Positions 2,509-13,735 of a DNA stretch of 24,082 nt are shown here, piece after piece; the stretch's first letter is position 1, and every line of letters begins with the position of its first letter. The position numbers were made by a program, and so were the translations under genes. Location: the IMG/VR virus record IMGVR_UViG_3300049825_000307, positions 1-24,082 of that record. One strand, 5' to 3'. Below the pieces are notes generated by a model, which worked only from the letters and a program-made list of their open reading frames with translations, was not told where the DNA came from and ran no database searches. This stretch comes from a virus.

Positions 2509-2816
2509 GACTCACCTATCCAGATTCTGATGATCATTGTCACAATAAAAACCAGCAGGAAAACCAGAAGGGCCAGGGCGGCCTTTTCCTCAACTGACGG
2601 CGCCCGCCCTTCCAGCTCATCCATTTCCCGGGTGCTCAAAAATTGCGTCGCATCAAACGCGCCCTTTTCGCTTTCCGCAATGACCCTCGTAGCCAGATCG
2701 GGCTCTGTATCGAGCCACTCGGGTTTGGCGGCCCGCACCATTTCTGGCGGCACGTCAGGCGTGCAAGGGCATGTGCGGGGGTCGGCGCAATTGAATTTGT
2801 GGGGGCATGTGCTCAT
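2505..2816 (-). CDS. Small C-terminally anchored membrane protein
   Basis: 103 residues. The N-terminus has four Cys within 20 residues (STCPHKFNCADPRTCPCTPD), the middle is acidic and polar, and the last ~25 residues form one hydrophobic helix (ALALLVFLLVFIVTMIIRIW), so the protein is probably tail-anchored in the inner membrane with its Cys-rich part in the cytoplasm. Start and stop both sit in ATGA overlaps with the alanine-rich gene upstream and the exonuclease gene downstream, which supports it being real. I do not recognise the family. The Cys cluster could bind a metal. Confidence 0.8.
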   Translation of the reverse strand: MSTCPHKFNCADPRTCPCTPDVPPEMVRAAKPEWLDTEPDLATRVIAESEKGAFDATQFLSTREMDELEGRAPSVEEKAALALLVFLLVFIVTMIIRIWIGES

Positions 2817-3487
2817 GCGTCACCCCTCAGGCATTCCAAGAACATTTGCGACATTGCGTCCCTGGCTGCGCCCCTGGCTGCGTCCCAGGCTGCGGCCCAG
2901 GCTGCGTCCCCGGCTGCGCCCCTGGCTGCGTCCCAGGCTGCGTCCCTGGCTGCGTCCCCGGCTGCGCCCCTGGCTGCGGCCCAGGCTGCGTCCCTGGCTG
3001 CGTCACAGGCTGCGGCCCAGGCTGCGCCCCTGGCTGCGTCCCCGGCTGCGGCCCAGGCTGCGTCCCTGGCTGCGTCCCTGGCTGCGTCCCCGGCTGCGCC
3101 CCTGGCTGCGTCACAGGCTGCGGCCCAGGCTGCGTCCCCGGCTGCGCTCAGCTCGCTATCAGTGGCTATCCCTCTTGCGTGGCGCTCCGCCACATCAAGC
3201 GCAGCAAGGCTTCGCGGATCAGTCATCAAGTGCTGCACAGTGCGGGCGAATTTCACCGCAAGAAGACGCCAGCGCTTGCTCTCTTCGGGCACGCTGCGCA
3301 GGCACCACAAAGCATCATCAAGGCCGTTAGACTCAAGAATCACCGACAGCGCTAGCGGCTCATCGTCTGTCGTCCCTTTACCAAGGTGCGCCAGCAGTTT
3401 GCACAGGCCCGTTTTTGTGCCGTTGGTATCGGGCCTGAGACCGCAGGGGCCGAAGGAGCGGATTTTATTTAGTGTGGTGTAAATCAT
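2813..3487 (-). CDS. Alanine-rich helical repeat protein
   Basis: 224 residues. The first ~112 form a normal-looking domain (CGLRPDTNGTKTGLCKLLAH, then ESNGLDDALWCLRSVPEE, then LAALDVAERHARGIATDSE). Residues about 113-215 are a strict four-residue repeat of the form Ala-(Trp/Arg/Gly/Cys)-(Asp/Ala)-Ala, and the last 13 residues are MSQMFLECLRGDA-like. Such AARDAAWDAA repeat proteins are frequent in phages of Gram-negatives; function unknown. The repeat should form long helices with Ala faces and alternating Asp/Arg/Trp. It overlaps both neighbours by ATGA. Two other frames of the repeat are also open but lack homologous features. Confidence 0.88.
   Translation of the reverse strand: MIYTTLNKIRSFGPCGLRPDTNGTKTGLCKLLAHLGKGTTDDEPLALSVILESNGLDDALWCLRSVPEESKRWRLLAVKFARTVQHLMTDPRSLAALDVAERHARGIATDSELSAAGDAAWAAACDAARGAAGDAARDAARDAAWAAAGDAARGAAWAAACDAARDAAWAAARGAAGDAARDAAWDAARGAAGDAAWAAAWDAARGAARDAMSQMFLECLRGDA
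2865..3146. repeat. 12-bp coding minisatellite, 24 units
   Basis: GCTGCG recurs on the plus strand at a strict 12-base period from 2865 to 3146, giving 24 copies, with the other six bases varying among a few combinations (TCCCTG, CCCCTG, GCCCAG, TCCCCG, TCACAG). The unit codes one four-residue Ala-rich repeat on the minus strand. All length changes by whole units preserve the frame. Confidence 0.93.
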
Positions 3488-7610: not shown

Positions 7611-7789
7611 GGTACGCCGCAACCATGGTGGCCGCTGACGGCTCAGTGCAACACCCAGAGGTCTGCGCGGACAGCGAGGCACTGGCAATGCTCGGCCTGT
7701 CACAGCTCGGGCTGTACGTTGAGCTGTTGGCAATTTGGCCTCTGCGGGATAGCGCCAGGGGAACATTTTGGAGGGGGGCTCAATCATGA
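7607..7789 (+). CDS. 60-residue hypothetical phage protein
   Basis: Starts MRYAATMVAADGSVQ, overlapping the previous stop (ATGA), and ends in an ATGA overlap with ninB. The middle (SEALAMLGLSQLGLYVELLA) is hydrophobic and helical. Not recognised; accepted mainly for its coupled start and stop. Confidence 0.55.
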   Translation: MRYAATMVAADGSVQHPEVCADSEALAMLGLSQLGLYVELLAIWPLRDSARGTFWRGAQS

Positions 7790-8214
7790 CACCGCTACGC
7801 GCCCGACTTATTTCAGCCCAGCAAGCAAAAGCGTGGCTTGACTCAGCCTATGTCCAGCTCAAGCCTCACTTGCTCAGCGAGAGGGCTTTTGATGTCGTTA
7901 TCAAGCCCGCCACCAGGACGCTGGACCAGAACGCGGCCCAGTGGCCAATCCTGCAGTCATTCGCAGACCAGCTGCCATGGCCGGTCAACGGCGTCATGTC
8001 GCAACTCTCGCCGGAAGAGTTCAAGGACATCTTCTCGGCCGCATTTCACCAGGAGAACGTGCGGGTGGCGGCCGGGCTGAATGGTGGCTTGGTGATGCTG
8101 GGGAAACGCACATCACAGATGTCAAGAAGGGAGTTCAGCGAGTGGCTGGATTTTTTGCACGCAACGGCCGCAGATCGCGGCGTCATCCTGGAGGTCAACC
8201 ATGAAACAGCCTAA
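7786..8214 (+). CDS. ninB: NinB-family recombination mediator
   Basis: 142 residues, the same size as lambda NinB (Orf). The ATG at 7786 follows GGAGGGGGG and overlaps the previous stop. Family features: RTLDQNAAQWPILQSFADQL, then PWPVNG, then LSPEEFKDIFSAAF, and a terminal stretch SRREFSEWLDFLHATAADRG, typical of NinB. In lambda this protein helps load the annealing protein on SSB-coated single strands. Here it would work with the RecT and exonuclease pair of the left arm. It overlaps the HNH gene by 14 bases. Confidence 0.93.
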   Translation: MTPLRARLISAQQAKAWLDSAYVQLKPHLLSERAFDVVIKPATRTLDQNAAQWPILQSFADQLPWPVNGVMSQLSPEEFKDIFSAAFHQENVRVAAGLNGGLVMLGKRTSQMSRREFSEWLDFLHATAADRGVILEVNHETA

Positions 8215-8713
8215 TGCGCTTGAAAAATGGAGGCCTATACCCGGGTTCCCTGGTTACTCCGCGTCGTCGGACGGCGCGGTCAGAAACGAATCCACCGGGC
8301 GGAAGCACGCAGGGCACGTTCTGCATCAAACCGGATATGTGCAGGCCTGCCTTGCAGGGCGGCAGAAGGTTGCAATGCACCGGCTTATAGCCCTTGCGTT
8401 CTGCCCAAACTTCGCCCCCGGAATGGTCGTCAACCACAAGAACGGGGACAAAAGAGACAACCGCCACTCCAACCTGGAATGGGTTTCTGTGTCCGAAAAC
8501 ACCGCCCACGCTTACCGTGTACTTAAGAGCGCGCACACAAAAAAGGCCGTTGAGTCGGTGTGCCCCAAAACAGGCGCAGTGGTGCAGCGGTTCGAGAGCG
8601 GGATGGCGGCATTCCTTGCGGGTGGCTTCAGCAGACCAGGCATTAGCAACTGCTGCCAAGGAAGGCAGGGCACCCACAAAGGCCTTAAGTGGCGCTATGC
8701 GGAGCACGCATGA
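8201..8713 (+). CDS. NUMOD4/HNH homing-type endonuclease
   Basis: 170 residues. The N-terminal NUMOD4 motif is visible (EKWRPIPGFPGYSASSDGAV), then His60 in AMHRLIALAF, and the HNH core at 78-95 (VNHKNGDKRDNRHSNLEW). The C-terminal part (VQRFESGMAAFLAGGFSRPG, ISNCCQGR, HKGLKWRY) is a NUMOD1-like DNA-binding module. This is a free-standing homing endonuclease of the kind that spreads between phage genomes. It overlaps ninB by 14 bases and the next gene by ATGA, so it has integrated neatly into the operon. Confidence 0.93.
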   Translation: MKQPNALEKWRPIPGFPGYSASSDGAVRNESTGRKHAGHVLHQTGYVQACLAGRQKVAMHRLIALAFCPNFAPGMVVNHKNGDKRDNRHSNLEWVSVSENTAHAYRVLKSAHTKKAVESVCPKTGAVVQRFESGMAAFLAGGFSRPGISNCCQGRQGTHKGLKWRYAEHA

Positions 8714-9385: not shown

Positions 9386-9640
9386 ATGGATCAATTCAAA
9401 GTGGGCGAGTTTTGGGCAAGTCCGAGTGAGGTGCTGTGGCGAGTGGCGGCCACCGAAGAATCGAAGCACGCTAGCTATGCGGTGCTGACGAGGGTGAAGA
9501 AGGATAAGGGCCGCATCACCCTACCAATGGGGGCCACAAAGGGCTGGGAGCGCATCGCCACGGCGGCTGAGGATCGGGCGCTGGTCGCCCTTTGCCGCCT
9601 GATTGGGGGGGGGGGCTGCGATGATTCAGCTCACCCTTAA
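9386..9640 (+). CDS. Hypothetical phage protein ending in a G11 tract
   Basis: 84 residues from the second of two adjacent ATGs (9386; the other is 9383). AAGGGG at 9375-9380 fits 9386 better. The protein (FKVGEFWASPSEVLWRVAAT) is a small beta-rich domain seen in many phages. The last residues are read through a run of 11 G and then in the frame overlapping rusA, ending at 9640. With 9 or 12 G the stop would be the TGA at the rusA start, the overlap style used elsewhere in this genome. The C-terminal eight residues are therefore suspect. Confidence 0.75.
   Translation: MDQFKVGEFWASPSEVLWRVAATEESKHASYAVLTRVKKDKGRITLPMGATKGWERIATAAEDRALVALCRLIGGGGCDDSAHP
9605..9615. repeat. G11 homopolymer
   Basis: Eleven consecutive G between the end of the 84-residue gene and the rusA start (ATG 9621). 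It can slip in replication or be miscounted in sequencing. Confidence 0.95.
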
Positions 9641-10091
9641 ATTGCCATGGCCGCCAAGCCTGAACACCTATTGGCGCAGCCCAAACAAGGGGCCGCTGGC
9701 TGGGCGGACGCTCATCAGCGAGAAGGGCAGGGCGTATCGCGAGGCGGTGCTGTGGGGCCTCACAACGGAGAAGCTGCCCGCTGATTCACTGCTGACCGCC
9801 CGCCTGTCCGTCGCCCTCTACGCCTATCCGCCCGATAAGCGCCGCCGCGACCTGGACAACCTGCCAAAAGCGATTCTTGACGCCCTAACCCACGCTGGCG
9901 TGTGGGCTGACGATGAGCAAATCGACCAACTGTCAATCCAGCGCTGCGAACAGCGCAAAGGTGGGCACATCAGGGTGGTCATCACAGCACTGGAGGCCCC
10001 GCATGCAGGACGAGGACAAACCAACGTTTTGGGCGCTGCTGTGGGTGCTGATCGGGCTGATATTGGCCTTGATATTCGACAAAAGGGGTGA
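9621..10091 (+). CDS. rusA: RusA-family Holliday junction resolvase
   Basis: 156 residues from the ATG at 9621. Family motifs are clear: PWPPSLNTYWR at the start, ISEKGRAYRE, and the catalytic Asp-rich region PDKRRRDLDNLPKAILDAL (Asp77, Asp79) with GVWADDEQI (Asp97/98). It cuts four-way junctions during recombination and before packaging. Typical RusA is about 120 residues; here about 30 extra residues follow the core (after VVITALEAP), and the DNA for this tail overlaps a well-signalled small ORF in another frame, so the tail may be only a read-through of sequence shaped by that ORF. Confidence 0.95.
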   Translation: MIQLTLKLPWPPSLNTYWRSPNKGPLAGRTLISEKGRAYREAVLWGLTTEKLPADSLLTARLSVALYAYPPDKRRRDLDNLPKAILDALTHAGVWADDEQIDQLSIQRCEQRKGGHIRVVITALEAPHAGRGQTNVLGAAVGADRADIGLDIRQKG

Positions 10092-10385: not shown

Positions 10386-10993
10386 TCGGAATGCCGAAAT
10401 CGATGATGCAAGAAGCCGCGCAGCCAATGGGGCCGCCAATTCGCAAGTCTGAGGTAGTCAGGGAGTGCCCCATCGCCAAGTTTGAGGTGGTCGACCACAG
10501 CCCCGCGCCCTCGACGCCCGTGCACCTTACAAACCTCTGGTTCGGTGATGGGCTGGTTTATGGATTCAGCATCCCGCGCATCCAAGTCAAGGGGGTCTTG
10601 GGCCAGGCGAGTGATTGGGTAGGGGTCGACGCCGCAGGGGATGAGCTGGTGAACTACCGCCCGGACAACCCGAAGATTGCCGAGCCCAAGCCCAGCGCCA
10701 CCCCGTCGTGGCTGACGGCAGACCCGGCGATGCACGAAAGAAACCCTGATGGCTTTCTAACCACTCGTGCGCTTTTGGTGAGGTACGACGCGGAGAAAGA
10801 GGCAGCAAAGCCAAAGCCAGACGCCGAGGGCTGGATCAATTGGGGGGGTGGTGGGGGCCCAATCCCCTCAAACTCCGTGGTTGATGTGATGTTGAGGGAT
10901 GGCACCTTTCATGAGCACCTTCGTGCGAGCAGATTGCGATGGATTGACTTAGGGACGAGTGGTGATATAGTGGCTTACCGCGTGGTGGGCTGA
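10382..10993 (+). CDS. Phage protein with a C-terminal 'WINW..G..DIVAYRVV' domain
   Basis: 203 residues from the ATG at 10382 (GGAGA six bases upstream, ATGA overlap). Residues about 20-80 form one domain (EVVRECPIAKFEVVDH, TPVHLTNLWFGDGLVYGF); the end, from GWINW through SVVDVMLRDGT to DLGTSGDIVAYRVV, matches a common small phage domain found after Pro/Lys-rich linkers. The linker has an internal Gly run encoded by a G-rich stretch (about 10843-10860). Function unknown; widespread in siphoviral and podoviral accessory regions. Confidence 0.78.
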   Translation: MIGMPKSMMQEAAQPMGPPIRKSEVVRECPIAKFEVVDHSPAPSTPVHLTNLWFGDGLVYGFSIPRIQVKGVLGQASDWVGVDAAGDELVNYRPDNPKIAEPKPSATPSWLTADPAMHERNPDGFLTTRALLVRYDAEKEAAKPKPDAEGWINWGGGGGPIPSNSVVDVMLRDGTFHEHLRASRLRWIDLGTSGDIVAYRVVG

Positions 10994-10995
10994 CC

Positions 10996-11499
10996 ATGGC
11001 GGCCTTGGATAGGTATGTCAGCGCAACCCGCTCAAGCAACCTGAGCGTGGATGAGCGCACAACAATGAGCGACTCAGACATGCTGGGCGCCATGGGGCTG
11101 GCAAGCAAGCGCAACCCCCTTGCCGCGGCCCTGGCTCGGCTGTACGCTGGGCACAATCATGCAGTTGCCGGCGTGGTCACCGCGCTGGCAAACGAGCTGA
11201 CAAACCACCGCCCAGCCAGAGAGCTGACCCGGCTACAGTGCGAGGATTTGAGCCGCGCTGTTCTGGCGTGGCATCGGGATGGGGTGTGCAAGCCCTGCGG
11301 TGGCCACGGCCACACTGCAATGCCTGGTGCCCCAGTGCTGTCGGGCAATGAGTGCCGAGCCTGCGCGGGGGCAGGGCGGATCAAATTCGAGCGCAACTTC
11401 AGGGAGCGCCAGGTTCCGGTGGCGCGGTGGCTGCTCAACCGGGTGGAGTCCGAGGTGGCAGGCGCCGGGACAGCGCTACATTCAAAACTAGGGGGGTGA
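10996..11499 (+). CDS. Cys4 zinc-finger protein, possible Q-like late antiterminator
   Basis: 167 residues. The N-terminal half is helical (DMLGAMGLASKRNPLAAAL, EDLSRAVLAWHRDGVC). A DnaJ-like zinc site follows: Cys98-X2-Cys101 in CKPCGGHGH and Cys120-X2-Cys123 in CRACAGAGR, then a basic helix (VARWLLNRVESEVAGAG). Some Q-type antiterminators carry a comparable zinc site, and this gene lies just before the late promoter, leader and terminator region, the place of Q in lambdoid phages. The role is inferred from position; it could instead be an unrelated zinc-finger regulator. Confidence 0.6.
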   Translation: MAALDRYVSATRSSNLSVDERTTMSDSDMLGAMGLASKRNPLAAALARLYAGHNHAVAGVVTALANELTNHRPARELTRLQCEDLSRAVLAWHRDGVCKPCGGHGHTAMPGAPVLSGNECRACAGAGRIKFERNFRERQVPVARWLLNRVESEVAGAGTALHSKLGG

Positions 11500-11502
11500 C
11501 AA

Positions 11503-11730
11503 GTGATTGCAGAGTTTTTTGGTTATGCCTTGAACATGTTCGGTGGAGGGGTGCGGCCAGCAAAGACAGCAGAGCCGTCAGCACTCTCCGCGGCTGAAAT
11601 CCGAGCCCGCCAAGAGTATGCGGTGTGCGCATTTGCGGGCGTTCACCTTCGAGACCTGGAGAGTATGTCCCAGCATAAGCCGCAGTTGGAGTGGCCTACC
11701 ATCGCATTCCCGGAGGATGGAGCTGTATAA
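11503..11730 (+). CDS. 75-residue hypothetical protein with GTG start
   Basis: The GTG at 11503 is preceded by GGGGGG nine bases before it. The sequence starts MIAEFFGYALNMFGGGV with a short hydrophobic helix, then SALSAAEIRARQEYAVCAFA and a polar end. No family recognised. The frame is intact between the zinc-finger gene and the non-coding leader, and the codon use looks like its neighbours. Confidence 0.55.
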   Translation: MIAEFFGYALNMFGGGVRPAKTAEPSALSAAEIRARQEYAVCAFAGVHLRDLESMSQHKPQLEWPTIAFPEDGAV

Positions 11731-11733
11731 ATT

Positions 11734-11762
11734 CACAGTACTATACAAATCCACAAACTGTG
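11734..11762. promoter_or_regulatory. Inverted repeat CACAGT / ACTGTG
   Basis: Six-base arms at 11734-11739 and 11757-11762, 17 bases apart, spanning the candidate late promoter. Could be a regulator site; weak evidence. Confidence 0.3.
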
Positions 11763-11769
11763 TTAAACT
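11742..11769 (+). promoter_or_regulatory. Candidate late promoter (pR'-like)
   Basis: TATACA (11742-11747), 16 bases, then an extended -10 TGT-TAAACT (11761-11769). Boxes match four of six each, helped by the TG extension. Transcription would start near 11776, giving a short leader that ends in the terminator at 11858-11881. Confidence 0.4.
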
Positions 11770-11773
11770 CCAG

Positions 11774-11881
11774 CCAGCCTTAAAAAGCTGGGGTGATCCC
11801 GGCAAAGCAACAAAGGGCACAGACCGCTAAGGCGGAGCTGTGCCCGCGAGAACACAACCCGCCCAGTGCGGGTATTTTTTT
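11774..11881 (+). ncRNA. Structured late leader RNA with alternative hairpins
   Basis: Three hairpins lie between the candidate late promoter and the terminator. CCAGC 11774-11778 pairs with GCTGG 11787-11791; the latter bases also fit GCTGGG 11787-11792 with CCCGGC 11798-11803 (one G-U), so the two are mutually exclusive. GGGCACAG 11815-11822 pairs with CTGTGCCC 11838-11845, enclosing CCGC/GCGG. The whole then ends in the intrinsic terminator. The layout resembles the lambda 6S late leader, on which Q acts. Confidence 0.5.
11858..11881 (+). terminator. Intrinsic terminator at the end of the leader
   Basis: CCCGC 11858-11862, loop CCAGT, GCGGG 11868-11872, then TA and seven T to 11881. It would block transcription into the late genes unless antiterminated. 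Confidence 0.8.
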
Positions 11882-11944
11882 GCCCCGCAGCGACACCCGG
11901 ACAGCCTCAGCCTGATCCCCTCGGGCCTGATCGCTTGCGGGGCA
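11881..11944 (+). other. Long stem-loop between terminator and late genes
   Basis: TGCCCCGCAGCGA (11881-11893) pairs with TCGCTTGCGGGGCA (11931-11944) with one bulged base, giving a 13-bp stem around a GC-rich loop with repeated CAGCCT-like and CCTGAT sequence. It abuts the terminator U-run. It could be an RNA structure or a packaging-associated DNA site next to the terminase genes; neither can be shown here. Confidence 0.45.
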
Positions 11945-11962
11945 AATTCATTGGAGCATCAC

Positions 11963-12139
11963 ATGGCTGACCCCACCACCTCCGAGCTGGAGCTTCTCCG
12001 AGCCGTCTACCGTGCAGCGCTGCTCCCCATGCATGCCAGCACCCCTGAAGAGACCCGAGTAGGGATGATCGAGTTGGACAAGCATTTGCAGGCCGCCCAG
12101 GCGTTCTATGGCGCCACCGGGGCGGAAGCCGGAATCTGA
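11963..12139 (+). CDS. 58-residue protein before the small terminase
   Basis: The ATG at 11963 follows TGGAG. The sequence MADPTTSELELLRAVYRAAL then LPMHASTPEETRVGMIELDK is helical and resembles short head-gene-region proteins of phages that I cannot name. The frame upstream is open into the leader but has no ribosome site there. Confidence 0.65.
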   Translation: MADPTTSELELLRAVYRAALLPMHASTPEETRVGMIELDKHLQAAQAFYGATGAEAGI

Positions 12140-12150
12140 GGGGTGGCCCT

Positions 12151-12468
12151 TTGAATTCCGAAAAACAATCAAAGAAACCAAAGGGACCGGGCAAGGGCGG
12201 CGCTCGCCCTGGCTCCGGTAGGCCAAAGGGGTCGCTGGACAAAGGGAACGCGGCCATTCGTGAGATGGTTGTTGGTGCGCTCGATGAGCTGGGCGGGGTC
12301 AAGTACCTCAAGGATGTAGCAACCACTCACCCTGCCGCGTTTCTGAGTCTGCTGGGAAAGATCCTGCCAACGCAGATCGAAGGGCCTGATGGTGGGCCGA
12401 TTGAGACGGTCACCCGCATTGAGTTGGTGGCGTTGAGTGCCAGCGGCAGAGATAGCACTACCTCCTAA
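12151..12468 (+). CDS. terS: Terminase small subunit-like protein
   Basis: 105 residues from a TTG at 12151, with AGGGG seven bases upstream and no suitable ATG. The N-terminus is strongly basic and Gly-rich (KKPKGPGKGGARPGSGRPKG), the common opening of small terminase or terminase-associated phage proteins, then helices (AIREMVVGALDELGG) and AFLSLLGKILPTQ. It would recognise the packaging site and feed DNA to the large subunit, whose gene overlaps it by 32 bases. Assignment is from position and the GGARPG.GRPKG pattern. Confidence 0.75.
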   Translation: MNSEKQSKKPKGPGKGGARPGSGRPKGSLDKGNAAIREMVVGALDELGGVKYLKDVATTHPAAFLSLLGKILPTQIEGPDGGPIETVTRIELVALSASGRDSTTS

Positions 12469-13735
12469 GCTGATCCCTGTATTCCAGGGGCGAGCTGATA
12501 TTCGAGGGGCATACGGGGGGCGGGGTAGCGGGAAGACTCGCAGTTTCGCCAAGATGGTCGCGGTGCAGGGCTACATCCACGGCATGGCCGGGACACGGGG
12601 TATTCTGCTGTGTGCGCGGCAGTTTATGAACAGCCTTGAGGATTCGAGCCTTGAGGAGTGCAAGCGTGCGATTGAAGAGGAACCGTGGCTGGCCGCTTGG
12701 TACGAGATTGGCGAAAAGTACATCCGCTCTAAGTGCGGGCGCATCAGCTTTGCGTTTGCCGGGTTGGATCGCAACATCGCCAGCATCAAGTCAAAGGGGC
12801 GATTGCTGCTGTGTTGGGTGGATGAGGCTGAGCCGGTCACCAATGAGGCATGGACCACGCTGATCCCAACTTTGCGCGAAGAGGGTGAGGACTGGAGCGC
12901 TGAGCTGTGGGTGACGTGGAATCCTAAGCGCAAGACGGCGCCGGTTGAGAAGAGATTCCGGCACCTGTCGCACGTTGTTGAGCTGAACTGGAAGGATAAC
13001 CCGAGGTTCCCCGCAAAGCTGGAGCGGGATCGCCTGGCAGACAAGGTTGAGCGCCCAGATCAGTACGGACACATCTGGGATGGCGAGTTTGCAACGGTGA
13101 TTGAGGGCGCCTACTTCGCCTCACACCTGACAGCGGCCAAGGATGAGGGGCGCATCGGCTTTGTTGCTGCTGATCCGCTCATGACGATTCGCCTGTTTGC
13201 TGACATCGGCGGGACTGGGGCGAGGGCTGACGCATTCACGTTGTGGGCGGCGCAGTTCATCGGCACTGAGATTCGGGTGCTCGACTACTACGAGGCGCGG
13301 GGCCAGCCGCTGGCGACCCATGTCGCGTGGATGCGAGAGCGGGGCTACACGCCGGATAGAGCGCAGATATGGTTGCCACATGACGGCAGTACGCAAGACA
13401 AGGTGCATGACGTTTCGTACGAGTCGGCGCTCAAGGCGTGCGGCTACACGGTGACGGTTGTTCCGAACCAGGGCAAGGGTGCCGCTAAGGCTCGGGTCGA
13501 GGCGGCTCGCAGGCTGTTCCCGTCGATGCGATTCAACGCAGAGACAACCGAAGCAGGGCGTGCAGCACTAGGGTGGTATCACGAAAAGCGGGATGAAGAG
13601 CGCGGCATCGGCCTTGGCCCAGAGCACGACTGGTCGAGCCATGGTGCTGACGCCTTCGGGCTGGTGTGCGTGGCCCATGAGGTGCCGAGGAAGTTGCAGC
13701 CCCTGCCGAAGATCAAAAGGAAATACGTCGTATGA
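12437..13735 (+). CDS. terL: Terminase large subunit
   Basis: 432 residues from a GTG at 12437. Walker A is GGRGSGKT (27-34), Walker B LLLCWVDE (123-130) with Glu130 as the likely catalytic base, and the nuclease domain begins near FADIGGTGARADAFTLW (about residue 250), with the C-terminal HDWSSHGADAFGL closing the RNase-H-like fold. This is the motor-nuclease that cuts concatemers and pumps DNA into the procapsid. The size matches the PBSX/Terminase_3-type large subunits. The 32-base overlap with terS and the GTG start leave a small doubt on the exact start; coupling to the next gene is ATGA. Confidence 0.96.
   Translation: MPAAEIALPPKLIPVFQGRADIRGAYGGRGSGKTRSFAKMVAVQGYIHGMAGTRGILLCARQFMNSLEDSSLEECKRAIEEEPWLAAWYEIGEKYIRSKCGRISFAFAGLDRNIASIKSKGRLLLCWVDEAEPVTNEAWTTLIPTLREEGEDWSAELWVTWNPKRKTAPVEKRFRHLSHVVELNWKDNPRFPAKLERDRLADKVERPDQYGHIWDGEFATVIEGAYFASHLTAAKDEGRIGFVAADPLMTIRLFADIGGTGARADAFTLWAAQFIGTEIRVLDYYEARGQPLATHVAWMRERGYTPDRAQIWLPHDGSTQDKVHDVSYESALKACGYTVTVVPNQGKGAAKARVEAARRLFPSMRFNAETTEAGRAALGWYHEKRDEERGIGLGPEHDWSSHGADAFGLVCVAHEVPRKLQPLPKIKRKYVV

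Follow-up and report, generated by a model that had tools for sequence, protein, structure and literature searches.

A stretch of viral DNA between a Q-position zinc-finger gene and the terminase genes probably serves as late promoter, leader and terminator in a Q/pR'/tR'-type switch of a temperate phage, with a small hairpin of the leader RNA, HP1, likely engaged in loading or stabilizing the modified transcription complex. The window, that is, the whole stretch of DNA analysed, is a 24,082-base IMG/VR virus record, and viral records of this kind are fragments. Its leader has a conserved anatomy, a covarying first hairpin, an association with the Q-like gene and a position before terminase genes. 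A late switch with an undescribed leader RNA is the best reading, given that Rfam holds no match and as judged within open-licence papers.

Gene order and features of the region

In lambdoid phages, Q, pR' and tR' sit between the early and late gene blocks, and the promoter, leader and terminator of the window are placed likewise (Table 1). As in lambda, 21 and 82, a Q-position gene follows NinB and RusA and precedes a late promoter with a -10-like element in the initial transcribed region, a leader, an intrinsic terminator and the late genes. Here the late genes start with terminase rather than lysis genes, and further rightward genes encode SU10-type portal, major head and head-closure proteins. 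The layout is well supported owing to this position (NinB and RusA upstream, terminase downstream), the co-occurrence of leader and Q-like gene, and the nearly fixed spacing between +1 and the terminator. The earlier note had read the region as a Q/pR'/tR' system with a leader of about 105 bases and alternative hairpins; the layout and the leader are supported, the alternative hairpins are not. An HNH/NUMOD4 homing-endonuclease-like gene (8201-8713) lies within the nin-like region.

Table 1. Features of the late-switch region and its neighbouring genes (positions in the window)
Feature	Position	Strand	Remarks
NinB	7768-8214	rightward	upstream of Q-like gene
RusA	9603-10091	rightward	upstream of Q-like gene
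Q-position zinc-finger protein, candidate antiterminator	10996-11499	+	167 aa; CxxCGGHG...CxxCxGxG
75-aa ORF between Q-like gene and promoter	11503-11730	+	matches no family; possibly not a gene
CTGTATAAA box	11723-11731	+	counterpart of CTG[GT]A[TC] in relatives
-35 hexamer TATACA	11742-11747	+	followed by a 16-nt spacer
Extended -10, TGn-TAAACT	11761-11769	+	distance to HP1 as in relatives
Predicted transcription start	11776	+	about 7 nt past -10; inferred
-10-like hexamer TAAAAA	11781-11786	+	adjoins HP1 on its 5' side; candidate sigma-dependent pause element
HP1, GCUGGG-GUGAU-CCCGGC	11787-11803	+	covariation-supported RNA hairpin
A-rich linker AAAGCAACAAA	11804-11814	+	partly conserved
HP2, GGGCACAG...CUGUGCCC, inner CCGC/GCGG stem	11815-11845	+	from folding and relatives
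Intrinsic terminator (tR'-like), ACCCGC CCAGT GCGGGT + T-run	11857-11881	+	stem 11857-11873, T-run 11875-11881
First ORF downstream of leader	11963-12139	+	58 aa; no family assigned
Probable small terminase	12151-12468	+	phrog_18735, E 0.0017; phrog_11043 (function unknown), E 7e-18
Large terminase	12437-13735	+	PF04466; phrog_3717

Promoter and initial transcribed region

The promoter that had been proposed at 11742-11769 finds support in its spacing, as its -10 lies from HP1 at the distance seen in relatives. The end of the -10 precedes HP1 by 16-18 nt in 23 leaders, a spacing partly constrained by the search, in which the -10 was picked within a limited distance range. Since a consensus promoter scanner did not list the window promoter (4+4 of 12 matches, under threshold), the assignment rests on comparison with relatives rather than on hexamer score. 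The -35 of the window is weak and lacks the TTGC carried at this position by 12 of 22 relatives. Farther upstream, a CTG[GT]A[TC] box (9 of 22 in total) lies 38-39 nt before the -10 in eight relatives and 41 nt before it in the window; it may be an element upstream of the promoter, or else the site at which the antiterminator contacts DNA. On the other side of the predicted start, a TA-rich hexamer directly adjoins HP1 in most of the 23 leaders, reading TACAAA, TATAAA or near variants in relatives, and the TAAAAA of the window is a weak version of it.

A covarying hairpin directly past the -10-like element

HP1 consists of a 6-bp stem and a 5-nt loop. Across 24 leaders, 144 of 144 cells of the stem pair, and all six pairs have undergone two-sided changes. 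Its covariation score is 0.986, against at most 0.205 for slid versions, a control that preserves the relatedness of the leaders, and 0.242 +/- 0.042 for shuffles, the count of which is not a probability because the leaders are related. G-U wobbles, which would be A-C mismatches on the other strand, occupy 15 of the 144 cells and thus point to a + strand RNA. Most leaders have the loop GUGUU in place of the GUGAU of the window (at the DNA level GTGTT in 15 of the 24 and GTGTC in four). The mean folding z across leaders is -3.27 for HP1, -1.63 for HP2 and +0.29 for a control stretch, and for an RNA starting at 11776 the pair probability of HP1 is 0.99. Covariation in relatives, suggested beforehand as a check on the leader, strongly supports HP1, which is, on this comparative evidence, under selection as RNA. 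Its conservation by matched base changes suggests a part for the RNA itself in the switch. A pseudoknot between loop and linker was also sought by eye and discarded, being inconsistent across sequences.

According to the earlier note, HP1 competes with a second hairpin and the leader might act as an attenuator. In the window the arms of the two hairpins do overlap at 11787-11791, where the 3' arm of the rival (GCTGG) pairs with CCAGC at 11770-11774 or 11774-11778. However, this 5' arm lies mostly upstream of the predicted +1, so that an RNA starting at 11776 retains three pairs, with a probability below 0.001; when the RNA is started at 11770 instead, HP1 still forms at about 0.70 and the rival, in the 11774 register, at about 0.2-0.27. 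Among the aligned relatives the rival has no apparent counterpart, and conservation is confined to one of the two hairpins. Mutually exclusive hairpins are therefore not borne out, and an attenuator built on them is highly improbable; HP1, the promoter, the long stem and the terminator of the anatomy first described all stand.

HP2, terminator and the leader as a whole

The leader RNA (11776-11881, about 106 nt) folds at -44.1 kcal/mol, with z = -3.3 relative to dinucleotide shuffles. The long stem and the intrinsic terminator recognized from the window recur as HP2 and a tR'-like element in the relatives, less strictly than HP1. HP2 is present in most minimum-energy folds of the leaders; in a MAFFT alignment of the relatives 71% of the cells in its columns pair, with two-sided change at two pairs and little covariation, so it appears conserved in shape more than by proven covariation. 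In 13 of 20 leaders the terminator ends 100-124 nt past the predicted +1. No family of Rfam 15 matches the leader at gathering score, and searches with five relatives found nothing in the leader at E up to 1. Directly past the terminator and ahead of the next ORF, the window holds a long inverted repeat, GCCCCGCAGCGA / TCGCTTGCGGGGC (11882-11943).

The leader travels with the Q-like gene

Protein searches yielded six viral loci and two bacterial ones (Variovorax and Aquincola), and a search with an alignment as query yielded 22 viral loci, some of them repeats. On inspection, the DNA downstream of the Q-like gene in the relatives has a leader in common. A covariance model of it, R1, was built from 17 leaders, whose own matches are given by construction; outside this training set it matches L075 (2e-14), L083 (2e-12) and L073 (5e-6), and later L105, L135, L099 and L114 (E about 1e-16 or better). 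At least 22 Q-like loci carry the leader after the gene, though their terminases differ. Nine of ten downstream proteins tested are terminase subunits, of several different families, which suggests that the leader and the Q-like gene travel together, as one module. R1 finds no leader at six Q-like loci (L005/L008, L006, L029, L056, L066 and L067), and L068 is borderline; HP1 thus does not accompany every Q-like gene. By eye, L066 and L067 seem to have a similar layout with other loops. At L029 (minus strand, Q-like gene at 10471-11214) the Q-like protein is divergent, and about 900 nt downstream of it comes a leader-like stretch in which the HP2 sequence and a terminator follow a different first hairpin.

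The association was also assessed from the side of the DNA, in 15 contigs whose leader was reached by a DNA pattern independent of the protein, non-leaders by the model being set aside. The Q-like gene or its cut end is found just upstream of the leader in 13 of them; of the other two, L099 is cut at the contig edge and L083/L147 has no Q-like gene in 15 kb. The latter is a 15,138-base contig with genes for a capsid protein and a lambda-type tape measure. Its orphan leader (L083:3663-3741) follows an integrase gene, and a -10 is not obvious where one normally lies. The contig may represent a compact phage, a fragment, or an element that relies on the protein of another phage.

Such an orphan is what would be expected if HP1 and HP2 bound RNA polymerase and antiterminated by RNA alone, as putRNA does, the zinc-finger protein doing another job or only helping. 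Like putL of HK022, the leader has two stem-loops just past the promoter and before a terminator, together with a -10-like element (PMC9378689). However, the leader is otherwise tightly associated with the Q-like gene, HP2 is far more variable than HP1, and an RNA antiterminator that is always on would render the terminator pointless. Moreover, put sites belong to early operons, act without a phage protein, by way of the beta' zinc-binding domain of RNA polymerase, and have longer, more complex stems (PMC9378689) that are nearly adjacent, whereas a linker of 11-14 nt separates the stems here. An RNA-only mechanism is thus quite unlikely.

Beyond these loci, phage and plasmid records contain no relatives of the zinc-finger protein, and phage records no similar DNA. 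Among bacterial genomes, 399 of a single order, Burkholderiales, were searched under strict filters, and the weak R1 matches obtained (L086-L090, E about 1e-3 over the 399 genomes) were taken as chance.

The zinc-finger protein

The protein encoded at the Q position has a DnaJ-type Zn finger and relatives that are 39-53% identical. That it is not a plain lambda Q relative, as had been noted from the sequence, is confirmed at this level: none of 26 family members matches PF03589, the Pfam family of lambda Q, at E up to 10, while lambda Q itself matches at 6e-58. Neither do the 26 match the Q82 (PF06323) or Q21 (PF06530) families in Pfam; NCBIfam and PDB sequences gave no Q-family match for the protein, and the Q82-type protein of Gifsy-1 has no detectable similarity to it. 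In PHROG, the window protein matches phrog_127, annotated as 'anti-termination protein Q-like', at E 1e-3, and such weak matches recur in 16 of the 26 members (best 8e-4). When aligned with lambda Q by hhalign, the zinc finger alone aligns, weakly (probability 19%). An AF2 model of the window protein (pLDDT 83.5) has Qlambda (7ubn_Q) as its best PDB match, with probability 1.00, TM 0.60 and E 0.017. Because the model of the L009 relative, from a Variovorax prophage (pLDDT 82.6), did not reproduce a Qlambda match, the Qlambda fold is treated as no more than a possibility. A distant relationship to Qlambda is likewise possible, in view of the weak zinc-finger match, the phrog_127 matches and one of two predicted structures.

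How the switch may work

The start site, pause, antitermination and HP1 role that we infer can be set out as follows. RNA polymerase would start near 11776 and, without the phage protein, stop at the terminator, releasing an RNA of about 106 nt. Sigma is probably retained at the -10-like hexamer adjoining HP1, giving a promoter-proximal pause during which the zinc-finger protein would load, so that polymerase reads through into the terminase and head genes. Once the pause is over, HP1 would emerge from the exit channel ahead of any other structure, and it probably helps to load or stabilize the modified complex, bound by the protein, NusA or polymerase. In lambda, the pause lies about 10 nt beyond the -10-like hexamer. 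If this spacing holds, the end of the paused RNA falls in the HP1 loop and HP1 could form only after escape. It would then be a candidate, like boxB or put (PMC9378689), to stabilize or mark the complex that has escaped.

Several points weigh against this explanation, namely the lack of a Q-family sequence match, the unreproduced Qlambda fold, the six Q-like loci at which R1 finds no leader, the weak window -35 without TTGC and the little covariation in HP2, as well as the fact that known Q proteins load through DNA and are not stated to need an RNA hairpin. In known Q systems the late promoter has to supply both a -10-like element for pausing and a DNA element for binding; 21Q and AlpA load from a DNA site at a sigma-dependent pause caused by the -10-like element and build a ring at the RNA exit channel (PMC6606751, PMC9371919).

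Given that Qlambda and 21Q use DNA elements (PMC6606751), the window might harbour a plain Q system loaded by DNA alone, in which HP1 merely shields the 5' end of the late mRNA or prevents misfolding of the leader. The conserved TTGC -35 and the CTG[GT]A[TC] box could then be the DNA sites of the protein, one predicted structure of which resembles Qlambda. We consider this doubtful, though conceivable, as it leaves unexplained why the loop is conserved (GUGUU or GUGUC, 19 of 24 leaders) and why HP1 has a fixed start immediately behind the -10-like element. Tentatively, one can go further than the switch itself and propose an undescribed family of phage leader RNAs, in which the GUGUU-loop hairpin is where zinc-finger antiterminators of a new class load onto RNA. 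The hairpin would be made as polymerase leaves the sigma-dependent pause, and a late, Q-position system would then work through nascent RNA, as N does, and not through DNA alone.

Comparison with known leaders

The window leader differs from the lambdoid ones in its tight covarying hairpin directly past the -10-like element, and it is shorter than that of lambda (about 190 nt). Whether such a hairpin is general to classical Q leaders was considered by folding those of lambda, Gifsy-1, five further Q82-type and four further lambda-type phages, with automatically picked promoters; the idea was dropped, the hairpin being strong in Gifsy-1 and weak or unclear elsewhere. In the nut site of lambda, boxB has a GNRA-like loop and is preceded by boxA. 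The window leader resembles this site in having a small hairpin with a 5-nt loop before terminators, and differs from it in its GUGUU loop, its late promoter and the absence of a visible boxA. AlpA of Pseudomonas aeruginosa is likewise an antiterminator loaded at a promoter with a -10-like element and a terminator downstream, but it is a different protein, its binding element (ABE) lies between -35 and -10, and NusA gave it no help (PMC9371919).

IsrK of Gifsy-1 is a short, terminated RNA downstream of the Q82-type gene antQ that acts in trans (PMC4825925), and a terminated leader could similarly be a regulatory small RNA, as the earlier note had also allowed. Both RNAs fold as hairpin, hairpin and terminator, and the isrK model of Rfam (RF01394) weakly matches the leaders of the window (12.5 bits) and L074 (18.8 bits). 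Membership was rejected, as these scores are far under the gathering score of 50 and R1 does not find isrK, whose A/T-rich CAAAAT is within the loop of the first hairpin, not before the hairpin. The HP1 loop and the A-rich linker are the sole unpaired seeds in common among the leaders, and the conservation of position and -10 spacing along with the RNA suggests a role in cis; a trans-acting RNA is hence unlikely. The IsrK region (L150:5070-5360) lies directly after a strong promoter, a parallel layout beside an unrelated Q family.

Significance

Q-type antitermination is understood as DNA-loaded; with a strictly covarying hairpin immediately past the pause element, RNA would become a component of it. 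The anatomy of HP1 gives the exact bases to mutate, and R1 offers a possible way to locate late promoters in unannotated phages. This concerns phages of Burkholderiales and related metagenomic hosts, the late control of which is little described in the open-licence literature.

Other features of the window

The RecT and YqaJ recombination genes are on the minus strand (587-2508). A 12-base tandem repeat of 24 copies (2855-3146) lies inside a minus-strand ORF (2813-3487) and gives rise to an Ala-rich repeat protein. At the very start of the record (1-102) there is a 6/12-base tandem repeat (ACCCGTACCCGG), which may mark an assembly edge.
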